Assembly (NCBI GenBank): GCA_020621405.1
Contig: JAHRYN010000011.1
Span: 1 to 40,405, forward strand
Reading direction: 5' to 3'
Length of the DNA: 40,405 nucleotides
DNA from: Betaproteobacteria bacterium
GTDB taxonomy: Bacteria; Pseudomonadota; Gammaproteobacteria; Burkholderiales; Rhodocyclaceae
In this document: piece by piece, positions 8,806 to 40,405 of the stretch
Layout of the letters: each line of letters starts with the position of its first letter
How positions within the stretch are numbered: the stretch's first letter is position 1
Position numbers and translations under genes: made by a program
The notes under the pieces: model-generated
The model's input: the letters and a program-made list of their open reading frames with translations, nothing else
Told to the model about the DNA's origin: nothing
Database searches by the model: none

Positions 8806-9933
8806 GTGAGTAGCGGCACGCTGCGCCTGGCGCGCCATGCCTCGATGTCGACGTTCGACGCCGGGCAGTGGGACAGTCTCGCCGGCGGACATGCGACGCT
8901 GTCGCACGCCTTGCTCGACGCGTTCGAGACGTCGGGCTGCGTGACGGCTGCATCCGGCTGGCAGCCCGACCATTTCGGCCTGTACGACGGCGACCGGCTG
9001 GTGGGAGCCCTGCCCGGCTACATCAAGAGCCACAGCTACGGTGAATACGTGTTCGACTGGGCCTGGGCCGAAGCGCTCGAGCGTTCCGGCCGCGACTACT
9101 ACCCGAAGCTGCTGTGCGCCGTGCCCTTCTCGCCGGTCCCCGGACCAAGGCTGCTGGCGCACGACGATGCGACGCGCAGGCACTTGCTCGACGCCTGGCT
9201 CGGGCACGCACGCACGAGCGGCGTGTCGTCGGCACACCTGCTGTTCCCCGATGCTGCCGGACTGGAGGTACTGCAGGCGACGCCGCTTCATCTGCGGGAA
9301 TCGGTCCAGTTTCACTGGCACAACGCCGGCTACCGGAGATTCGACGAATTCCTGGCGTCGCTGGATCGGGACAAGCGCAAGAAGATCCGTCAGGAACGCC
9401 GACGCGTCAGCGACGCCGGCGTGTCGCTGCGCCGCATCGACGGCGCCGACATTCCGGATGCCCTGCTGGACCTTTTCGTGCGCTGCTACCGCAACACCTA
9501 TGCGGTGCGCGGCCAGCGGCCCTACCTGAACCGGCGCTTCTTCGAACTGCTGCGCGAGCGCGTGCCGCAGTCGCTGATGCTGGTAGTGGCGACGCTGGAC
9601 GGCCGGGACATCGCCTGCGCCTTGAACCTGCGCGACGAGAAGCGCCTGTATGGCCGCTACTGGGGAGAGATCGAACACGTTCCCTGCCTGCATTTCGAGG
9701 CCTGCTACCACCAGGGCATCGAATACGCGATCGAACGCGGGCTCGAGGTGTTCGAGGGGGGCGCACAGGGGGAACACAAGATGGCGCGGGGCTTCACGCC
9801 CCGGCGCACCTGGTCGGCACACTGGCTGCGCGACCAGGATCTTTCGGATGCCGTGGCGCGCTACCTGGAACGGGAGCGCGCCGGCATGGCACTGCACATC
9901 AGCGAACTGGAAGAGCGCACGCCCTACCGCTGA
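8806..9933 (+). CDS. FemAB-like / GNAT-fold acyltransferase family (COG3146, DUF482)
   Basis: This 375-residue protein belongs to a family annotated as peptidoglycan biosynthesis/recognition-like acyltransferases with GNAT folds; the true substrate is unknown. Typical family stretches are LSHALLDAFETSGCV, YIKSHSYGEYVFDWAWA, YYPKLLCAVPFSPVPGPRLL and FEGGAQGEHKMARGF. I start it at a GTG that directly follows the stop of the preceding gene (TGAGTG), which implies coupled translation. An ATG 39 bases further in is the alternative. It is convergent with ppa. No signal peptide is seen, so it is probably cytoplasmic. Confidence 0.85.
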   Translation: MSSGTLRLARHASMSTFDAGQWDSLAGGHATLSHALLDAFETSGCVTAASGWQPDHFGLYDGDRLVGALPGYIKSHSYGEYVFDWAWAEALERSGRDYYPKLLCAVPFSPVPGPRLLAHDDATRRHLLDAWLGHARTSGVSSAHLLFPDAAGLEVLQATPLHLRESVQFHWHNAGYRRFDEFLASLDRDKRKKIRQERRRVSDAGVSLRRIDGADIPDALLDLFVRCYRNTYAVRGQRPYLNRRFFELLRERVPQSLMLVVATLDGRDIACALNLRDEKRLYGRYWGEIEHVPCLHFEACYHQGIEYAIERGLEVFEGGAQGEHKMARGFTPRRTWSAHWLRDQDLSDAVARYLERERAGMALHISELEERTPYR

Positions 9934-33036: not shown

Positions 33037-33162
33037 TTGCCGGAACCGGCTCCGGGCGGTAGCCGGCCTGGGGTCCAAGTACGATCGTCGTGGCACCCGG
33101 CCCGATCCTGTCGCTAACCCATCCGGTTCCGCTGACAGCGGATGCCGTCCTGCCAAGCACTG

Positions 33163-33849
33163 ATGACACCACTATTCATCGCCGCCATCGTCGTACTTGC
33201 GCTGATCTGTGCCAGGCAGTGGCGGCGGCAGCAGGCATTGAGCAGGGAAAGCCACATCCGCAGCTTCCCGCTTCCGCACGGCGTCTTTGAAAAGCTGCGC
33301 AAGCGCCATCCGCAGCTGACACAGAAGGACTGCCAGCTCGTCGCCCAAGGACTGCGGCAGTTCTTCCTGGCCTATCTGAAGGGCGGCAAGCGCTATGTCG
33401 CGATGCCATCGCAGATCGCAGACGACCTGTGGCACGAATTCATCCTGTGCACGAAGAACTACCAGACGTTCTGCGACAAGGCCTTCGGCGGTTTCCTGCA
33501 CCACACCCCGGCAGTTGCGCTGCGCGGCAGCACACCTGACGATGAAGGACTGCGCCGCTGCTGGCGGCAGGCCTGCCGCGACGAAAACATCAACCCGCAA
33601 CGACCGGCACGGCTGCCTCTGCTGTTCGCACTGGATGGCAAGCTTGGCATCGTGGACGGCTTCCGCTACGTCCCGGACTGCAGCGGCGTCAGGCGCGAGG
33701 ACAAGCGCAGCGACAGTGGCGGTGCTGTCCACTGCGGCAGCGATTTTTCGAGCACCGACGCAGACGGTGGTAGCGACGGTCCGGACGACGGCGGCAGTAC
33801 CGACGGCGGCGACGGAGGTGGCTGCGGCGGCGGTTGCGGCGGCGACTGA
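33163..33849 (+). CDS. Membrane-anchored protein with Gly/Cys tail, unknown function
   Basis: This 228-residue protein has one N-terminal membrane span (about 3-18, PLFIAAIVVLALICA). A soluble domain follows (about 30-175) with FEKLRKRHPQL, ADDLWHEFILCTKNYQTFC and FGGFLHHTP. The linker is Asp/Ser/Gly-rich, and the tail ends GGDGGGCGGGCGGD. The middle domain resembles what I recall of glycine-rich-domain (GRDP-like) proteins, with WHEFIL as a typical stretch. An in-frame ATG at 33142 is another possible start; neither has a clear ribosome site. Cys-Gly tails of this kind occur on several bacterial membrane protein families of unknown role. Confidence 0.7.
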   Translation: MTPLFIAAIVVLALICARQWRRQQALSRESHIRSFPLPHGVFEKLRKRHPQLTQKDCQLVAQGLRQFFLAYLKGGKRYVAMPSQIADDLWHEFILCTKNYQTFCDKAFGGFLHHTPAVALRGSTPDDEGLRRCWRQACRDENINPQRPARLPLLFALDGKLGIVDGFRYVPDCSGVRREDKRSDSGGAVHCGSDFSSTDADGGSDGPDDGGSTDGGDGGGCGGGCGGD

Positions 33850-33901: not shown

Positions 33902-33925
33902 AAAAAACGGGCGCCGAAGCGCCCG
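33902..33925 (-). terminator. UUCG-tetraloop terminator, copy 1
   Basis: On the minus strand a 7-bp stem CGGGCGC / GCGCCCG closes a TTCG loop and is followed by six T. It lies 19 bp after the stop of the PEP-CTERM gene at 33945. The C(UUCG)G loop is an exceptionally stable RNA tetraloop. The same 18-base hairpin recurs at 34738 and 37966. Confidence 0.93.
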
Positions 33926-33944
33926 TCGAAGACAGCAGGCCCGA

Positions 33945-34562
33945 TCAGATCGTCCGGCGACGTGCAACCATGCCCAGAAGGCCCAGCCCAGCCAGGAACA
34001 GCGCGTAGCCTTCCGGCTCAGGTACCGGCGCCGCCGCGATGGGCGTTGCGCGGAAGCGGAAGTTGTCCATCGCCAGGTGGTCGTAGTCGTCGTTGTCGAA
34101 GCCGAACGTCATGCCATCGATCGGACCCGCATAACCGGGTGTCAGCAGCGACGGCGTACCGAAGAAGCGCATGCGGCCATCGTTGCCCAGCAGATTACCC
34201 TGATAGACCGTCTGTCCGTCGTGATAGAGGACGAAGAAGAAATCGCCATTGGCGTCCAGTCCGCGGCGGCTCCAGAAATCCGCGCCATCGAAGTAGAAAT
34301 CCGCATCGTCACCGCGGCGGATGAAGGTACTGCCGATGGTCGAGGTGGCAAGGAAGTGCTTTTCCTGCGCGACGCCCTGGGTCATGTAGTACCAGCGGTC
34401 GCCCCAGTCGAAACCGCCATACCCATCCGGCAGATGCACACCGGTCGGGCTGGCGCCGAGTTCCTCAAACCCGAGTACGCCGGCAACCGGATCGGCGGCG
34501 TTGGCAGCAACCGATGCCGCGAGGCTGCCCGCAGCGAGAAATGTAAGAAGCGCTCTGCGCAT
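33945..34562 (-). CDS. PEP-CTERM exported protein (short)
   Basis: This 205-residue protein has a signal peptide (MRRALLTFLAAGSLAASVAA). The secreted body has GVLGFEELGASPTGVHLPDG and many aromatic/Gly/Asp-rich strands. The middle (DFYFDGADFWSRRGLDANGD) and later LAMDNFRFRATPI suggest a beta-sandwich, possibly Ca2+-binding. The C-terminal sorting signal is VPEP (180-183), a hydrophobic span and RRRTI. It would be processed by an exosortase, which is not in the window. It has its own upstream 19-bp operator-like motif (34629-34647) and its own terminator. It is unrelated in sequence to the two long PEP-CTERM proteins nearby. Confidence 0.9.
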   Translation of the reverse strand: MRRALLTFLAAGSLAASVAANAADPVAGVLGFEELGASPTGVHLPDGYGGFDWGDRWYYMTQGVAQEKHFLATSTIGSTFIRRGDDADFYFDGADFWSRRGLDANGDFFFVLYHDGQTVYQGNLLGNDGRMRFFGTPSLLTPGYAGPIDGMTFGFDNDDYDHLAMDNFRFRATPIAAAPVPEPEGYALFLAGLGLLGMVARRRTI

Positions 34563-34628
34563 GGTTGGAGTTGTCCCTTGAAATGTTGGTGACGGATCGC
34601 GCTGATCGATCCCGAAAAACCCTAAATC

Positions 34629-34647
34629 GTGTGAAATTATCCCACAC
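34629..34647 (-). promoter_or_regulatory. 19-bp palindromic motif, copy 1
   Basis: GTGTGAAATTATCCCACAC (plus-strand reading) lies 67 bp upstream of the PEP-CTERM start at 34562. Arms GTGTG/CACAC are perfect. It aligns without gaps with 37801-37819, 39272-39290 and 39313-39331 (rough consensus GTGNGRAAATWTTYCCCAC). It is probably a regulator binding site shared by the cluster. Confidence 0.65.
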
Positions 34648-34729
34648 AAAGATGAATGGCGTTCATCCGTCGTGCCGCAATAGATGAATTTTTCACGGGT
34701 CAGTCAGGGCATCCCTGCTGCGTGCCTGC

Positions 34730-34755
34730 AAAAAAAACGGGCGCCGAAGCGCCCG
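34730..34755 (-). terminator. UUCG-tetraloop terminator, copy 2
   Basis: The same 18-base hairpin as copy 1 (CGGGCGC, TTCG loop, GCGCCCG on the minus strand) is followed by eight T. It lies 21 bp after the stop of the long PEP-CTERM gene at 34777 and ends the fccA-fccB-PEP-CTERM unit. Confidence 0.94.
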
Positions 34756-34776
34756 TTTCGATTCGCAAGCAGCAGT

Positions 34777-35889
34777 TCAGCGCATGCGGCGACGCGCGAT
34801 GCCAGCCACCACGGCCATACCGGCAATCAGCATTGCGTAGGTGTCGGGCTCGGGCACGACGGCCGCGACATTCAGATTGGCTGCCGCGTTCTGTGCCCCC
34901 ATGTAATTGCCGAGTTCGATCGGGCGCCCCGAGTCATAGCCCGGCAGATCGGGATGGTTCGGGTGCGAGTCGCTGCCAACCAGCGCTTCGTGGTTTTCCG
35001 GGTCGTATTCGCCCGAATAGCGGTAGAACTCATAGCGGCGAATGATCGAGGCGGCGTTGGGCCCGACCGGCACGCCGTAGCCTCTTTCCAGCTGACCGGC
35101 GTCGGGGTTACCCGGATCGGTCTGCAGCAGCTGCCATTCGATTTCGGTATGCAGCTTGGCCTCTTCGATGACCGGGTTGCCGCCGATCAGGTCTTCCAGC
35201 TTGGCGTCGTTCTCGAGTTCGGTCGTGAACACCTTGACCCAGATGGCTTCGCCGAACTGCGCTTCGTTTTCCGCCTTCGGCGCCTGGATCTGCGCCACGA
35301 CCACCGGCGGATTGCCGGCCACAGGAGCCGGGTTAACCACCCAGGCCGGCGCCGGCAGGCTGACCGTGCCGTTGGTCAGGGTGCCGGGCGTGCCGGTTTC
35401 GAGCAACCAGCTGTAAATGGTCTTGGTCGCGTTCTTGGTCGTGCCGACGCCGAAGTGGTCGCACGGCGTGCTCGCACCGTAACCGACACCACCGCCCGAC
35501 CAGCAGTTGTCGCCCGGCGTCACGAAGGTGCCGCTCGGCGTGCCGTAGTCCCAGTTGCTGCCGTCGAACAGGCCCATATAGGTGACCTTGGTGCCGAAGG
35601 TCGTGCCGTTGTTGTATTCGGTGATGGTCGGTGCGCCATAGCGCTGCACGCTGGTCAGCGGATCAAAGCCGCGGCCGCTCGGAAATCCGCGACCGGCTCC
35701 ACCGAAGGTATCGGTGATGTCACTGCTGTACAGGCCCTCCAGGTCGATCTCGAAACCGTGCGCCGTGCTGCCGGTGTCGTTGATCACGTCGAAATTGCCG
35801 AGAAAGCCGATGACGCCGGCGGAACTGACGCTTGGCGCAAGCGCCATGGAAATGGCAACCGCCATCGCCGAAAGTGATGCCTTTTTCAT
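34777..35889 (-). CDS. Long PEP-CTERM exported protein, paralogue A
   Basis: The 370-residue protein has a signal peptide (MKKASLSAMAVAISMALA through SSA). A long secreted body begins GVIGFLGNFDVINDTG, and VPEP (345-348), a hydrophobic span and RRRMR form the exosortase sorting signal. It shares long identical blocks with the protein at 38005: DTFGGAGRGFP, SVQRYGAPTITEY, DNCWSGGGVGYGAS, STPCDHFGVGTT and GAQNAA. The two cysteines in the NCW and TPCD blocks are conserved in both and may pair. It starts 92 bp after fccB and appears to be the third gene of that operon. I recognise no domain beyond the sorting signal. The body may bind a surface ligand or polysaccharide; this is unknown. Confidence 0.9.
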   Translation of the reverse strand: MKKASLSAMAVAISMALAPSVSSAGVIGFLGNFDVINDTGSTAHGFEIDLEGLYSSDITDTFGGAGRGFPSGRGFDPLTSVQRYGAPTITEYNNGTTFGTKVTYMGLFDGSNWDYGTPSGTFVTPGDNCWSGGGVGYGASTPCDHFGVGTTKNATKTIYSWLLETGTPGTLTNGTVSLPAPAWVVNPAPVAGNPPVVVAQIQAPKAENEAQFGEAIWVKVFTTELENDAKLEDLIGGNPVIEEAKLHTEIEWQLLQTDPGNPDAGQLERGYGVPVGPNAASIIRRYEFYRYSGEYDPENHEALVGSDSHPNHPDLPGYDSGRPIELGNYMGAQNAAANLNVAAVVPEPDTYAMLIAGMAVVAGIARRRMR

Positions 35890-35981
35890 ATGCCTGACCC
35901 CTTTATCTAAACTGCTGTCTGAAACCGGTCTGATGGGCCCGTTGCGGTGCCCGCCCTGTCCGGCATGTGCTGCACCAAAAT

Positions 35982-37280
35982 TCAGGCAAACGTATCGTCG
36001 AAAAGGCGGTTTGCCCACTTGAACATCTGCTCGAAATTCTTCTTGCTGGGCGTGCCGGCCTCACCGAAGGACGGCTCGACACGCTTCATCATCCGCGTCG
36101 CCGGATCGTAGGCAAATACCGCGTTCAGCCACGACGCCGTGTCGTAGGTGATCGGACTGAAGCAGGCGGAATTGACCACGACACTATCCATGCGCGCCGG
36201 CTCGTCGATCGGCCAGCCATTCAGCAGACGCACCACCGCGTCGGCACAGACCTTGGCTTCCGAATTCGCGATATGGCCGGCCTTCGGCAGGCCGGTGCCC
36301 TGGGCGTCGCCGATCACGTGTATCCGCGACGCGGCGGTGGACTCGAAGGACAGCGGATTCACGCCGGCCCAGCGACCTGCAACATTGGCCAGACCCAGCT
36401 GATGGACGACCGGCGCAGCCGTGTTGCGCGGAATGTGGTTCAGCACGTCACAGCCGTAGGACACCTCGCCGGCACCATCGCGTACCCATGCCAGACGGCG
36501 CGCGCCCTCGAAGCTGACGCGGACGACCTCGGCATTCGGCACATAGGTCAGCCGGCCGGCATAAGTGATGTTGAAGGCGTTCAGGAAGGTCGCCACTTCG
36601 GCCTGGATGCCGGGATTGGCATCGAGCACGATGATTTTCGACTTGGGTTTCTTGCGCTTGAGGTAATCGGCAATGACGCAGGCGCGCTCGTACGGCCCGG
36701 GCGGGCAACGATAGGGCGCCTTCGGAATGGTCATGATGACCGTGCCGCCATTGCGCATGTTCAGCAGCTGACTGCGCAGTGTCAGCGTCTGGTCTCCCGC
36801 CACCCACGCGTGCGGCACCATCGCCTGAAGTGCCGGCGTCTCGAGACCGGGCACCGGGTCGAAGCCGATGCCCGGCGCCACGATCAAGCGGTCGAAATCG
36901 ACCGAACCGCCGCCGGCCAGGTCCAGCTTGCCGGCCACCGGGTCGGCGGCCACAGCGCGGTCGCGCACCAGTTCGATGCCATAGCGCTGATTCAGGCGCG
37001 CATGGCTGAAATTCAGTGCCGAGTACTGCACCCGGTCATTCAGCACCAGATTGCTGAGGATGCAGGACACGTGCGACGCGTTCGGTTCGACCAGCGTGAC
37101 CGACACGCCCGGTCCGCCCCACAGTGCGACGTACTTCGCCGCGGTCGCGCCGGCGAAGCCGCCGCCGACCACCACGACGCGCGAAGCCACGGCGGCACGC
37201 GCACTGCCCACGCTGCCGAGCAGCGGCAGGCCCGCTGCGCCGGTCGCTGCTTTCAGAAACATTCGACGATCAATGGTCAT
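35982..37280 (-). CDS. fccB: Flavocytochrome c sulfide dehydrogenase-like flavoprotein
   Basis: This periplasmic FAD enzyme of the FccB/SoxF type would oxidise sulfide or a related thiol and pass electrons to its cytochrome partner. The 432-residue protein has a twin-arginine signal (DRRMFLKAATGAAGLPLL). The FAD loop VVVGGGFAG is at 36-44. Cys73 is in SCILSN, where Allochromatium FccB has its flavin-linking Cys42. Cys192 (YRCPPGPYER) and Cys373 (SACFSPITY) match the redox-active disulfide pair. C-terminal residues about 365-430 form the FCSD flavin-binding domain. It follows fccA by 13 bp. Sulfide as substrate is inferred from family only. Confidence 0.92.
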   Translation of the reverse strand: MTIDRRMFLKAATGAAGLPLLGSVGSARAAVASRVVVVGGGFAGATAAKYVALWGGPGVSVTLVEPNASHVSCILSNLVLNDRVQYSALNFSHARLNQRYGIELVRDRAVAADPVAGKLDLAGGGSVDFDRLIVAPGIGFDPVPGLETPALQAMVPHAWVAGDQTLTLRSQLLNMRNGGTVIMTIPKAPYRCPPGPYERACVIADYLKRKKPKSKIIVLDANPGIQAEVATFLNAFNITYAGRLTYVPNAEVVRVSFEGARRLAWVRDGAGEVSYGCDVLNHIPRNTAAPVVHQLGLANVAGRWAGVNPLSFESTAASRIHVIGDAQGTGLPKAGHIANSEAKVCADAVVRLLNGWPIDEPARMDSVVVNSACFSPITYDTASWLNAVFAYDPATRMMKRVEPSFGEAGTPSKKNFEQMFKWANRLFDDTFA

Positions 37281-37293
37281 GACAGGCGTCCTT

Positions 37294-37782
37294 TCAACGA
37301 TGGCCGGCAAGCAGTTTCAGTTTCGCCCGCTGCAGTGCAGTAAGCGTGTTTTGGGAAGACTTCGGTCGATCATCGTTTGACGATTCCTTTTTGCCGGTCG
37401 TACCGGTCGCCGCCGCACTGCTGACCGCAGTGGTCGCTGCAGCGCCTGCCGGAGCGGTACCCGCACTGACAGCGAACCAGCGCGCGATGCGCTGGATCTG
37501 CGCATCGCTGTAGCCTCGCGCCTGCAGATGCATGATGTTTCCGCCCACAGCCTTGCTGCGCATTTCGGACATTTCTTCAGCGATCTCGGCCGCCGATTCG
37601 CCATTCAGTCGCTCGAAACCGCCCTTGCCAGTCGCATCGGCGGCATGACAGCCCAGACACTGCGAAGCCAGCAGTCGGTCGTCCTCGGTCGCGGCGAGCG
37701 CCAGCCCTGCCATCAACATCGTCGCGCCGAGCCCGCAGGCCATCAGCCTGCGTACGCTTGATCGGTACTTTTCTGTCGTCAT
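37294..37782 (-). CDS. fccA: Monohaem c-type cytochrome subunit of the flavocytochrome
   Basis: This 162-residue periplasmic cytochrome has a signal peptide (about 1-31), the haem-binding CLGCH at 42-46, and likely axial Met84 (NIMHLQARGYSD). It resembles the single-haem cytochrome partners of FccB; the Allochromatium subunit has two haems. After the cytochrome domain (to about 107) it has an Ala/Thr/Ser-rich linker. The basic amphipathic end (TALQRAKLKLLAGHR) is not part of a haem domain. The ATG follows AAGGGGG. A 19-bp palindromic motif is 18 bp upstream of the ATG. It is cotranscribed with fccB and probably the PEP-CTERM gene at 34777. Confidence 0.9.
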   Translation of the reverse strand: MTTEKYRSSVRRLMACGLGATMLMAGLALAATEDDRLLASQCLGCHAADATGKGGFERLNGESAAEIAEEMSEMRSKAVGGNIMHLQARGYSDAQIQRIARWFAVSAGTAPAGAAATTAVSSAAATGTTGKKESSNDDRPKSSQNTLTALQRAKLKLLAGHR

Positions 37783-37800
37783 CGTTGGCCCCCTTAATAA

Positions 37801-37819
37801 GTGAGGAAAATTTTCCCAC
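37801..37819 (-). promoter_or_regulatory. 19-bp palindromic motif, copy 2
   Basis: GTGAGGAAAATTTTCCCAC has the perfect inner palindrome GGAAAATTTTCC. It lies just upstream of the fccA ribosome site. Minus-strand TTAACC and TATTAG spaced 17 bases would place the promoter just upstream, so a protein bound here would sit at or after the transcription start, as a repressor does. Confidence 0.7.
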
Positions 37820-37847
37820 TCAACTAATAGCCGTACATTAAATAAGG

Positions 37848-37864
37848 GTTAATTCAACATTAAC
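37848..37864 (-). promoter_or_regulatory. LysR-type-like inverted repeat upstream of fccA
   Basis: GTTAATTCAACATTAAC has perfect 6-bp arms around a 5-bp centre and fits the T-N11-A pattern of LysR-family sites. It lies 66-82 bp before the fccA start, upstream of the proposed -35. No LysR gene is in the window, so an activator site is only a suggestion. Confidence 0.5.
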
Positions 37865-37961
37865 TTTCGGACAGGTTTCGGCAGCCGGACCGATGACCGA
37901 TACCGCACGAAGCACCGTAGTCCACGACCGGCGACGGCCCCGCAAGGACGCACCACAAATG

Positions 37962-37983
37962 AAAACGGGCGCCGAAGCGCCCG
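37962..37983 (-). terminator. UUCG-tetraloop terminator, copy 3
   Basis: The identical 18-base hairpin (CGGGCGC, TTCG loop, GCGCCCG on the minus strand) is followed by TTTTCATTT. It lies 21 bp after the stop of the PEP-CTERM gene at 38005, separating it from the fccA unit. Confidence 0.92.
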
Positions 37984-38004
37984 TTCCCGGTAACGTCATC
38001 GCGA

Positions 38005-39135
38005 TCAGTTCACCCGGCGTCGCACCATCAATCCAAGCACGCCGAGGCCGCCGAGCATGGACAGCCAGGTCGACGGTTCCGGCACCGCCACCGCTGCAGC
38101 AACATCGAAATTCACCGCGGCGTTCTGGGCACCGAGATAGATGCCCACATCGCCCGGCCCCGGATGGCCGTCGCCGAAACCCTTGGCGAAATCGGCTTCG
38201 TGGTCCTTCTTGTAGTCGCCGGCAAATTTGTAGAACTCGTAGCGGTACAGGATGGCTTCGGAATTCTCGCCAATGCCGACGTTGACGCTCTCGAAACGCC
38301 CCGACAGCGGATTGCCGATTTCCTTCTGCAGCAGCAACCATTCGATCTCCAGTTCGGCTCCATCAACCTTTTCGTTGCCGCCGATCAGTTCTTCCAGCTC
38401 GACGCCAGCCTGAAGCTCGGTCTTGAATATCTTGATCCAGATTGCATCGCCGAATTTGGCGCTGTCCTCAGCTCCGGCAGCATCCGCCACCGGATCCGGC
38501 GCCTCGATCACGGCCACCACACGCTGCGGCGGCAGTGCAGGCTGACCGACCGGTGCGGGCACCGCGGCGGGTTCGACGACCCACACCGGAGCGGGCAGCG
38601 TCACGCCGTTCTTGGTCAGCAGGTCCGAATTCGGCTGGGTTTCGAGCAGCCAGCTGTAGATGGTCTTGCTCGCGTTCCGGGTCGTACCGACACCGAAGTG
38701 GTCGCACGGCGTGCTGGCGCCATAACCGACGCCGCCACCGGACCAGCAGTTGTCACCCGGAGTCACGAATCCGCCGCTGGGTGTGCCGTAGTCCCACGAT
38801 CCGTTGCTGAACAGGCCCATATAGGTGACACGGGTACCGAATACCGCACCGTTCACATACTCGGTGATGGTCGGCGCGCCATAGCGCTGGACGCTGGTCG
38901 CCGGATCGAATCCCCTGCCGGTCGGAAAGCCGCGCCCCGCTCCGCCGAAGGTGTCGGTGATTTCGTAGCTGTGCAGGCCTTCGAGCTCGATCTCGAAACC
39001 GTGCGCCATCGACCCGGTGTCGTTTACGACATCGAAGTTGCCGAGAAAGCCGATGACTTCGGCCGATCCGATCGCCGGTACAAACGCCAGGGAGAGCGCC
39101 ACTGCAATCGCCGGAAGGTTCTTTTTTATGATCAT
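38005..39135 (-). CDS. Long PEP-CTERM exported protein, paralogue B
   Basis: This 376-residue paralogue of the protein at 34777 has a signal peptide (about 1-24). EVIGFLGNFDVVNDTG opens the mature part, and the shared blocks DTFGGAGRGFP, QRYGAPTITEY, DNCWSGGGVGYG and STPCDHFGVGTT follow. The sorting signal is VPEP (351-354), a hydrophobic span and RRRVN. The middle part (about 195-240) is the least conserved and is Pro/Ala/Val-rich. It forms its own unit with two 19-bp motifs upstream and a terminator. The start has AGGAG nine bases upstream. A hairpin with arms GAGGCGC/GCGCCTC (39161-39187) lies in its leader. Function is unknown; it is probably exported and processed by an exosortase. Confidence 0.9.
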   Translation of the reverse strand: MIIKKNLPAIAVALSLAFVPAIGSAEVIGFLGNFDVVNDTGSMAHGFEIELEGLHSYEITDTFGGAGRGFPTGRGFDPATSVQRYGAPTITEYVNGAVFGTRVTYMGLFSNGSWDYGTPSGGFVTPGDNCWSGGGVGYGASTPCDHFGVGTTRNASKTIYSWLLETQPNSDLLTKNGVTLPAPVWVVEPAAVPAPVGQPALPPQRVVAVIEAPDPVADAAGAEDSAKFGDAIWIKIFKTELQAGVELEELIGGNEKVDGAELEIEWLLLQKEIGNPLSGRFESVNVGIGENSEAILYRYEFYKFAGDYKKDHEADFAKGFGDGHPGPGDVGIYLGAQNAAVNFDVAAAVAVPEPSTWLSMLGGLGVLGLMVRRRVN

Positions 39136-39271
39136 TGAATGACTCCTGTATCAAATGGATGAGGCGCGCGTGCCCGACGGGCGCCTCCAGCCTGAGCACT
39201 GAATGGGATCACCGGGACAATTCCGCCTGACCTTCGGCGACCCCGACCCGACGTTCCCGCAGCCACCAAAT

Positions 39272-39290
39272 ACGAGGAACTTTTTCCCAC
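39272..39290 (-). promoter_or_regulatory. 19-bp palindromic motif, copy 3 (weaker)
   Basis: ACGAGGAACTTTTTCCCAC matches the fccA copy at 15 of 19 positions. It lies 137 bp upstream of the PEP-CTERM start at 39135 and 41 bp (about four helical turns) from copy 4, so a regulator could bind both on one DNA face. Confidence 0.5.
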
Positions 39291-39312
39291 GGACAGAGCA
39301 ATGATACATGGA

Positions 39313-39331
39313 GTGGGAAATATTTACACAC
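39313..39331 (-). promoter_or_regulatory. 19-bp palindromic motif, copy 4
   Basis: GTGGGAAATATTTACACAC lies 178 bp upstream of the PEP-CTERM start at 39135 and just before the terminator of the next gene upstream. It is the same motif as the copies at 34629 and 37801. Confidence 0.6.
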
Positions 39332-39414: not shown

Positions 39415-40176
39415 TCAGAAGACCCTTCCGACGATCACGCCGGAGCCCCAGTCGGCGCTGGCATCGGAATAGCCGGTCACGGCATAGGCCTGAACCTTCC
39501 ATTCGTCCGACAGGCGATGCGTGACGAAGGCGGTCATTTCGCGGATCGGATCAGAAGTCGGACGCAGCCGGTCGCGCCAGTCGTACGACAGGCCGACCGT
39601 CGTCGCTGAGCCAATCTTGTGGGCAAGGCCGAGCGATGCAAACACCGGATTCTTGAACGTGATGCCATCAGGGTCACCCATGCGCTTGTAACCCACCGTG
39701 CCGAATACGGACGCCGGACCGAAGCTGCGATAGACATCCGCCTGCACCGATACGTCGTTCTCGCCGGTGCCCAGGCCGCGCGACGAGCTTCCGGTGCCGA
39801 ACTTGACCTTGCCGCCGACATCCACGACCCAGCCACCCTGCTCGAACACCGTGTAGGTTGCGCCCGCCACGATGTCGCCGAGGCCGGATTCGGTGGTGCG
39901 TCGCGTACGGGTGACACCGTCGATGGTCACTCGATCACTGCCCGAACCCACAACACCACCCGGACCGGTGATGCTCACCCAAGGCACGGTCGCACGTACG
40001 GTCCAGTTGCCGACCTCGTACTTGGCGATGACCGGGACATACACCGTATCGGTGCTCTGCGATGAACCGTATTTGCCGGTCGAAAAATCCAGGCCGCTGC
40101 TCATGGTCAGCGTTCCTTCGGCGCATGCCAGACACGGCATCAGCGCCGCCCCAATCACCAAGCCCACCCTCGACAT
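39415..40176 (-). CDS. Outer-membrane beta-barrel protein, transporter-like
   Basis: This 253-residue protein has a signal peptide (MSRVGLVIGAALMPCLACA). Alternating amphipathic strands follow to a C-terminal Phe (VIVGRVF), the signature of proteins inserted by the BAM complex. Segments such as GNWTVRATVPWVSITGPGG and GLGDIVAGATYTVFEQGGW resemble the DUF3187/phenol-degradation-type porin group, without a specific match. I prefer the ATG at 40176, preceded by a G-rich stretch. A GTG at 40203 would add nine residues ahead of the signal peptide. It has its own terminator. Confidence 0.82.
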   Translation of the reverse strand: MSRVGLVIGAALMPCLACAEGTLTMSSGLDFSTGKYGSSQSTDTVYVPVIAKYEVGNWTVRATVPWVSITGPGGVVGSGSDRVTIDGVTRTRRTTESGLGDIVAGATYTVFEQGGWVVDVGGKVKFGTGSSSRGLGTGENDVSVQADVYRSFGPASVFGTVGYKRMGDPDGITFKNPVFASLGLAHKIGSATTVGLSYDWRDRLRPTSDPIREMTAFVTHRLSDEWKVQAYAVTGYSDASADWGSGVIVGRVF

Positions 40177-40262
40177 CAACCGCCCCCCGCCGTTGAACTG
40201 CACCTGAACCCGGAGGCGCTCATCTTCCCGTCCGGTACTTCTGAAATCCGTTCCCGAAGCGA

Positions 40263-40405
40263 CTAGGGCTTTTCGACCTTTTCGACCTTTTCGACCTTTT
40301 CGACCTTTTCGACCTTTTCGACCTTTTCGACCTTCTCGACCTTCTCGACCTTCTCGACTTTCTCGACTTTCTCGACTTTCTCGACTTTCTCGACTTTCTC
40401 GACTT
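40263..40405 (-). CDS. 3' end of a gene encoding Val-Glu-Lys repeats (cut by window edge)
   Basis: On the minus strand a frame enters from the window edge and ends at TAG (40263-40265). The last 46 codons are a pure VEK triplet repeat, ending VEKVEKP. The rest of the protein is not visible, so the family cannot be named. Lys/Glu/Val-repeat tails occur on coiled, nucleoid-associated and granule-associated proteins. No terminator was found right after the stop. Confidence 0.72.
   Translation of the reverse strand, partial: VEKVEKVEKVEKVEKVEKVEKVEKVEKVEKVEKVEKVEKVEKVEKP
40269..40405. repeat. 15 tandem 9-bp units (coding VEK)
   Basis: On the plus strand there are 7 copies of CTTTTCGAC (40269-40331), 3 of CTTCTCGAC (40332-40358), 5 of TTTCTCGAC (40359-40403), then two bases at the edge. 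All three variants encode Val-Glu-Lys on the minus strand and differ only at silent third positions. Confidence 0.97.

Follow-up and report, generated by a model that had tools for sequence, protein, structure and literature searches.

Near the right end of a 40,405-nt contig of a Betaproteobacteria bacterium of the Rhodocyclaceae (GenBank assembly GCA_020621405.1, contig JAHRYN010000011.1; this whole stretch is called the window here), three transcription units bring together genes for PEP-CTERM proteins and for a flavocytochrome c, which raises the question of what such units have in common. A preliminary description had regarded them as one regulon, each unit being preceded by the same 19-bp palindrome and closed by the same UUCG-loop terminator. 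This view is very probably right, the palindrome being the operator of neighbouring genes for DUF6502 proteins, which lie outside the window. We propose, with a probability of about 0.82, that the three units form a local regulon of a DUF6502 protein predicted to bind the shared palindrome; most likely, DUF6502 would be a DNA-binding protein that regulates its own genes and has the units as targets. The motif, its conservation, the gene order and the co-occurrence described below are read directly from the sequences.

The open reading frames, together with matches to the Pfam PEP-CTERM and FccB-type domains, bear out the arrangement first described, with three units on the minus strand. The first consists of long PEP-CTERM gene B alone (376 aa; 38005-39135; PF07589, E = 2.6e-7), the second of fccA, fccB and, as its third gene, long PEP-CTERM gene A (370 aa; 34777-35889; PF07589, E = 1.2e-5), and the third of short PEP-CTERM gene C (205 aa; 33945-34562; PF07589, E = 1e-6). 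All three PEP proteins exceed the curated Pfam cut-off, with the domain at the C-terminus, and exosortase is present in the same genome (two PF09721 matches, 246 and 241 bits). Long PEP proteins A and B are 63% identical; the structure model of B is beta-rich, with a predicted local distance difference test score (pLDDT) of 77, and its fold had no PDB match at E 0.001. The units end at minus-strand terminators located at 37962-37983, 34734-34755 and 33904-33925. Pattern searches of the host genome (3.80 Mb, 12 contigs) for the 22-base terminator CGGGCGCTTCGGCGCCCGTTTT, with up to two mismatches allowed, found three copies, all exact and all in this region, and none was found in 100 window shuffles.

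The palindromes, likewise on the minus strand, are imperfect, with 6-7 of the 9 arm positions pairing as counted by eye. Long PEP gene B has one operator at 39313-39331 (GTGTGTAAATATTTCCCAC, 1 mismatch) and a second, weaker one at 39272-39290 (GTGGGAAAAAGTTCCTCGT, 3 mismatches); the operator of the fccAB unit, located by motif search and promoter-overlap scan, is at 37801-37819 (GTGGGAAAATTTTCCTCAC), within TTGAGT-18-TATTAA, and that of gene C is at 34629-34647 (GTGTGGGATAATTTCACAC, 1 mismatch). With up to three mismatches, the 19-bp motif had four matches in the window against 0.31 expected, and 29 in the whole genome against 8 for the reversed pattern; the genome sites with no or one mismatch were those of the window's three units only, a rank that is partly circular because the pattern was written from these same sites. 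Coordinates and genome-wide searches thus uphold the palindrome before, and the terminator after, each unit. The independent part of the operator evidence comes from the upstream regions of DUF6502 genes.

We found that the window ends in KVEK-coding repeats, where the C-terminal KVEK-repeat tail and stop codon of a DUF5666 protein can be read directly (40263-40405, minus strand), and that another contig of the assembly, C7, opens on the same strand with repeats coding for KVEKADK and holds the start of that gene (L069:3-1775). The start of C7 therefore probably abuts the window end, continuity across the contig break being judged from these repeats. Towards the window, C7 encodes a ClC channel, DUF6502, DUF5666, a divergent small KE-rich secreted protein, DUF6502 and DUF5666; the two DUF6502 proteins matched PF20112 at 95.8 and 108.4 bits (cut-off 27), and their genes lie about 3 and 5.5 kb, plus the contig gap, upstream of long PEP gene B. 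In the compared genome G311, a single contig (L083) carries DUF6502-DUF5666-DUF6502-DUF5666-Up262-long PEP-short PEP; the long PEP gene there has a site upstream and a homologue of gene C beside it (8867-9493). Because the repeats match across the break and G311 shows this order on one contig, the window units very probably continue a DUF6502 cluster. Gene calls for the neighbour, gene-order and target-gene comparisons were made by a rough script and include some wrong frames.

The operator, with up to three mismatches, was present upstream of DUF6502 in 22 of 32 loci, downstream in 0/32, internally in 0/32, and in 1 of 640 dinucleotide shuffles, in a set whose consensus was read off these same upstream regions and in which several loci are close relatives. 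The 32 loci were from the order or genus, plus a Zoogloeaceae metagenome-assembled genome (MAG; L035) and a Chromatiales MAG (L037), with the host genome left out. With the consensus fixed, a later, phylum-wide sample of 21 genes, three of them from a genome already represented, gave 8/21 upstream, 0/21 downstream and 2/420 in shuffles, and six of the misses (L205, L206, L215, L220, L221 and L225) have related palindromes by eye. DUF6502 itself was present in 48 of the 300 genomes taken from the order and, in the phylum-wide sample, in 21 of 398, and the DUF6502-DUF5666 pair recurs in Alpha- and Betaproteobacteria. On plasmids, 75 records had a DUF6502-like match, and three of five examined carry the operator, that of Azospirillum lipoferum as an exact copy and those of Methylocystis iwaonis and Pseudoroseomonas cervicalis in two or three copies; in Methylocystis, a gene annotated as an outer membrane beta-barrel likewise has two sites upstream. 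One scan of viral contigs with one peptide pattern found no DUF6502.

Among genomes that we chose from those of the earlier comparisons, GTGGGAAAWTTTCCCAC (up to two mismatches) had 48 sites in 23 genomes with DUF6502 versus 5 in 16 without; the reversed control had 7 and 0, respectively. By hand count, 22 of the 48 sites are at DUF6502 itself and 26 elsewhere. DUF6502 was present in 12 of 27 long PEP genomes compared (L041, L059 and L060 of the 30 loci being left out). When long PEP genes were scored for operator-like palindromes, 6 of 23 rows with DUF6502 passed a threshold of 0.75 versus 0 of 24 without (p = 0.009), against 7 of 940 shuffles. This score was devised after the sites had been seen, with the thresholds of 0.75 and 0.85 fixed before the run, and it misses two loci, L083 and L088, that pass the consensus rule. 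A post hoc count by hand, combining a threshold of 0.6 with the consensus rule and merging the second rows of L035 and L053, gave 11 of 22 genes versus 0 of 23; L084 and L041, copies of L040 and L079, were left out of both counts. At the thresholds used, long PEP sites are confined to genomes with DUF6502.

As to mechanism, we infer that a DUF6502 protein would bind in dimeric form to GTGGGAAA-W(1-3)-TTTCCCAC palindromes in the promoters of its own gene and of its targets, which it would contact with a helix-turn-helix (around SRxSLLTGVHRKDVKRLR). The proposed cluster would run from two DUF6502 genes, each followed by DUF5666, through Up262 to the three units. Most proteins with GTGGGA sites have TG[VI]HRK as their helix-like segment; in L125 to L128 it is [ST]GL[ST]RK, and TTGGGA or ATGGGA sites lie close upstream in L125 to L127 and about 0.75 kb away in L128; such pairing is as expected if the segment reads the site, with relatedness as a confounder. 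Repression, relieved by a signal, is the likelier mode, since the fccA site fills the -35/-10 spacer. Across genomes, a -35/-10 pair encloses 19 of the 48 sites in its spacer, as against 204 of 1920 shifted positions; ten of the 19 have TTGACG as the -35 element and a 17-base spacer, and this overlap is moderate evidence for repression by blocking RNA polymerase. All targets would be exported: the PEP-CTERM proteins as exosortase substrates, FccA and FccB, and probably, from another part of the genome, an RTX-like protein.

Several points weigh against this proposal. The threshold was missed in 10/32 and 13/21 of the DUF6502 upstream regions, there was no site in two Rhizobium plasmid records or in G164 (L099), and the host's own sites ahead of the DUF6502 genes, at C7:2615 and C7:5083, are weak (2 and 3 mismatches). 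Among DUF6502 genomes, L037, L039, L046, L050, L078, L082, L086, L087 and L157 had no site at their long PEP genes, and the palindrome score at 0.85 was not significant (3/23 versus 0/24, p = 0.11). In G325, G327 and G328 the DUF6502 and PEP promoters agree only in the palindrome's outer letters, G301 combines a distant DUF6502 (70 bits) with an fccAB pair without a site, and in the window promoter overlap is clean at fccA only. The genomes are related, so that the counts are not independent. DUF6502 as a binder and regulator is also a prediction: a PDB profile search gave no credible relative, and the structure model has a pLDDT of only 48.6, the helix-turn-helix being read from the sequence and from predicted helices, which in that poor model occupy residues 72-80 and 84-95, at the expected place.

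FccB (35982-37286, minus strand) has a twin-arginine-like start, DRRMFLK, by eye, an FCSD_central domain (PF21706, E = 1e-31; 109.9 bits, cut-off 27), and matches to flavocytochrome c subunits of known structure, 5n1t_A (2e-70) and 1fcd_A (6e-66). Its residues 194 and 375 are Cys in all eight sequences compared and align with C161 and C337 of 1fcd, which we take to be the redox-active pair. FccA (37294-37782, minus strand) is a mono-haem cytochrome c subunit with a single CxxCH motif, CLGCH; all its cytochrome c profile matches were below threshold, and its best PDB relative is 5n1t_B (1e-10). The C-terminal FCSD-flav_bind domain of FccB missed its cut-off (18.8 bits versus 26), and we therefore call the pair only FccAB-like and claim no substrate. 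G311 keeps the fccA site in the same position, with 3 mismatches, even though its fccAB pair is 0.4 Mb away from DUF6502. G307 and G308 also possess fccAB (81-82% FccB identity) but gave no DUF6502 match, and there the corresponding stretch is eroded to 6 mismatches.

The preliminary description had suggested an exported or surface structure coupled to a periplasmic redox enzyme, taken here as a dedicated, conserved surface redox structure of FccAB and long PEP proteins. In its favour, fccAB and a long PEP gene are close together in three genomes of the genus (G000, G307 and G301), in the Zoogloeaceae MAG L035 and in a distant Verrucomicrobiaceae MAG (L058). In L035, the genes for DUF6502, DUF5666, FccA, FccB and a long PEP protein are consecutive and share one strand, preceded by the perfect palindrome AATGTGCAATTTGCACATT, as an apparent single operon. 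Because L035 joins them in this way, the FccAB-PEP link is not chance in every case. The linkage thus held for L035 and for 3 of the 8 genus genomes with a long PEP gene, in which fccB is within 5 kb of it, whereas general conservation did not: the long PEP family mostly occurs apart from fccAB, with only 2 of 30 database loci (L035 and L058) having both. The 30 loci, 29 of them outside the genus, were searched within the available stretch, short for several loci, and the 28 without fccAB led us to reject the linkage as a general story; in G311, moreover, fccAB and long PEP are 0.4 Mb apart. No neighbour was conserved in more than 5 of 38 long PEP loci, some with short flanks. The long PEP relative in L058, about 30% identical and 2.3 kb from fccAB-like genes, occurs in a genome with no DUF6502 match. 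A dedicated, conserved structure is supported only in part and appears rather unlikely to us.

The shared palindrome could also be read by another, unlinked transcription factor, with DUF6502 as one of its targets, for instance as a partner of DUF5666, a reading favoured by the poor structure model of DUF6502 and by the PDB search without a credible relative. We consider this improbable, however, as the sites follow the presence of DUF6502 (48 in 23 genomes versus 5 in 16), as proteins with GTGGGA sites and those with TTGGGA sites have different helix-like segments, and as operator variants pair between DUF6502 and PEP promoters within one genome, being GTGTAA-type in G312 and G319, AATGNGTGT..GCACATT in G322 and TTGGGA in G324. 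It is more improbable still that the motif and terminator copies are leftovers of a tandem cassette duplication without shared regulation. The long PEP paralogues A and B, the identical terminators found nowhere else in the genome and the duplicated DUF6502-DUF5666 pair all fit such an origin, but the sites precede non-homologous genes, here and in other genomes, and the G311 stretch has a site without a terminator. The known sigma-54/PrsK-PrsR control, described for other PEP-CTERM genes (PMC1569441, PMC9850573), seems to us extremely improbable here: the palindrome differs, -24/-12 matches are not in excess in the window (16 versus 23.8 expected), and the region's two matches both lie inside fccB. 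Such control was rejected for the three units, with no -24/-12 match upstream of them at up to two mismatches.

Regulation by DUF6502 may extend to other genes of the host and its relatives. A site with 3 mismatches to the 19-bp pattern lies 117 bp before a host gene (L070 7320-8168) whose product ends in VPEPGSVSLFLAGLCLLGFAARRRA, a putative PEP-CTERM-like tail; another lies 87 bp before a gene judged RTX-like by eye (L193 2800-4317), relatives of which occur in the vicinity of DUF6502 in L144 and L146 and, in G274, downstream of a site. Some other matches (L187, L190) are inside apparent coding regions and look like chance. Homologous proteins with nine CxxCH motifs are encoded near DUF6502 in L133 (11505-13736) and L152 (9431-11707), with a site upstream in L133, and are possible redox targets in other genomes. 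L127 and L129 have in common, close to DUF6502, a response-regulator-like gene and a member of another family (clusters c80 and c81), the site being upstream of that pair in L127 and between DUF6502 and the pair in L129. On two Rhizobium plasmids (L184, L185), DUF6502-DUF5666 has flagellar hook genes upstream and a chemotaxis receptor gene downstream, without a palindrome.

Between the DUF5666 tail and the three units lies Up262 (39415-40203, minus strand), an exported protein that had no Pfam or NCBIfam match and is barrel-like by analogy only; members of its cluster were found in 11 of 40 compared stretches, the window included, making it a recurrent neighbour of DUF6502. Small secreted proteins made up of KVEK or ERTERPE repeats are encoded divergently from DUF6502 in two genera (L069:2749-2973 and L132:7751-8242), and repeats of this kind also form the end of the DUF5666b protein. 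By eye, the fccAB regions of other genus genomes (L075, L076, L078) seem to contain gamma-glutamyltransferase, YlqF-like and partly ClC-like genes as on C7, and a BLUF-like protein seems common to L075, L078 and C7. At the far end of the units, a convergent gene (33142-33849) encodes a Gly/Cys-rich tail (GGDGGGCGGGCGGD) and matched no family above cut-off.

If the proposal is true, it gives DUF6502 its first function and DNA target, the control of exported proteins. Pfam lists no function for PF20112 DUF6502 or PF18914 DUF5666, to which membership was assigned by curated cut-offs, whereas an operator and targets are proposed here; no paper on DUF6502 was found in the open-access full text of 5.39 million papers. 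There is about an even chance, in our estimate, that DUF6502 represents an autoregulated transcription-factor family of Proteobacteria with its own operator code, switching on one signal an exported set of PEP-CTERM substrates, DUF5666, barrel, RTX-like and periplasmic or multihaem redox proteins, in which FccAB or the DUF5666 proteins may report the signal from the envelope.

None of the matches listed in the open-access literature describes a system of this composition, in agreement with the preliminary description, and three known systems may be compared with it. The flavocytochrome c sulfide dehydrogenases (1fcd, 5n1t) are homologous to the greater part of FccB and align with it at both active-site cysteines, and the mono-haem FccA is closest to 5n1t_B; unlike in those enzymes, FccAB here is proposed to be co-regulated with PEP-CTERM genes. 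Zur is a metal regulator of the Fur family. In Anabaena, Zur and the exoprotein ZepA resemble the present case in that a cytoplasmic regulator is reported to control an exported protein (PMC10957091); this paper mentions PEP-CTERM 12 times. For PEP-CTERM genes themselves, the available parts of three papers, in which DUF6502 is not mentioned, describe a common sigma-54-linked site with PrsR at many proteobacterial genes (PMC1569441), an RpoN-dependent gene in Aquincola (PMC9850573) and a Desulfovibrio response regulator enriched at five PEP-CTERM targets (PMC3333781). From these accounts, the PrsK-PrsR regulon resembles the present one in having PEP-CTERM genes in mostly single-gene units with long upstream regions, a common site and a regulator, but it uses a sigma-54 promoter and a response regulator, whereas here a palindrome of 17-19 bp, paired with DUF6502, also precedes non-PEP genes and stands without upstream -24/-12 sites.

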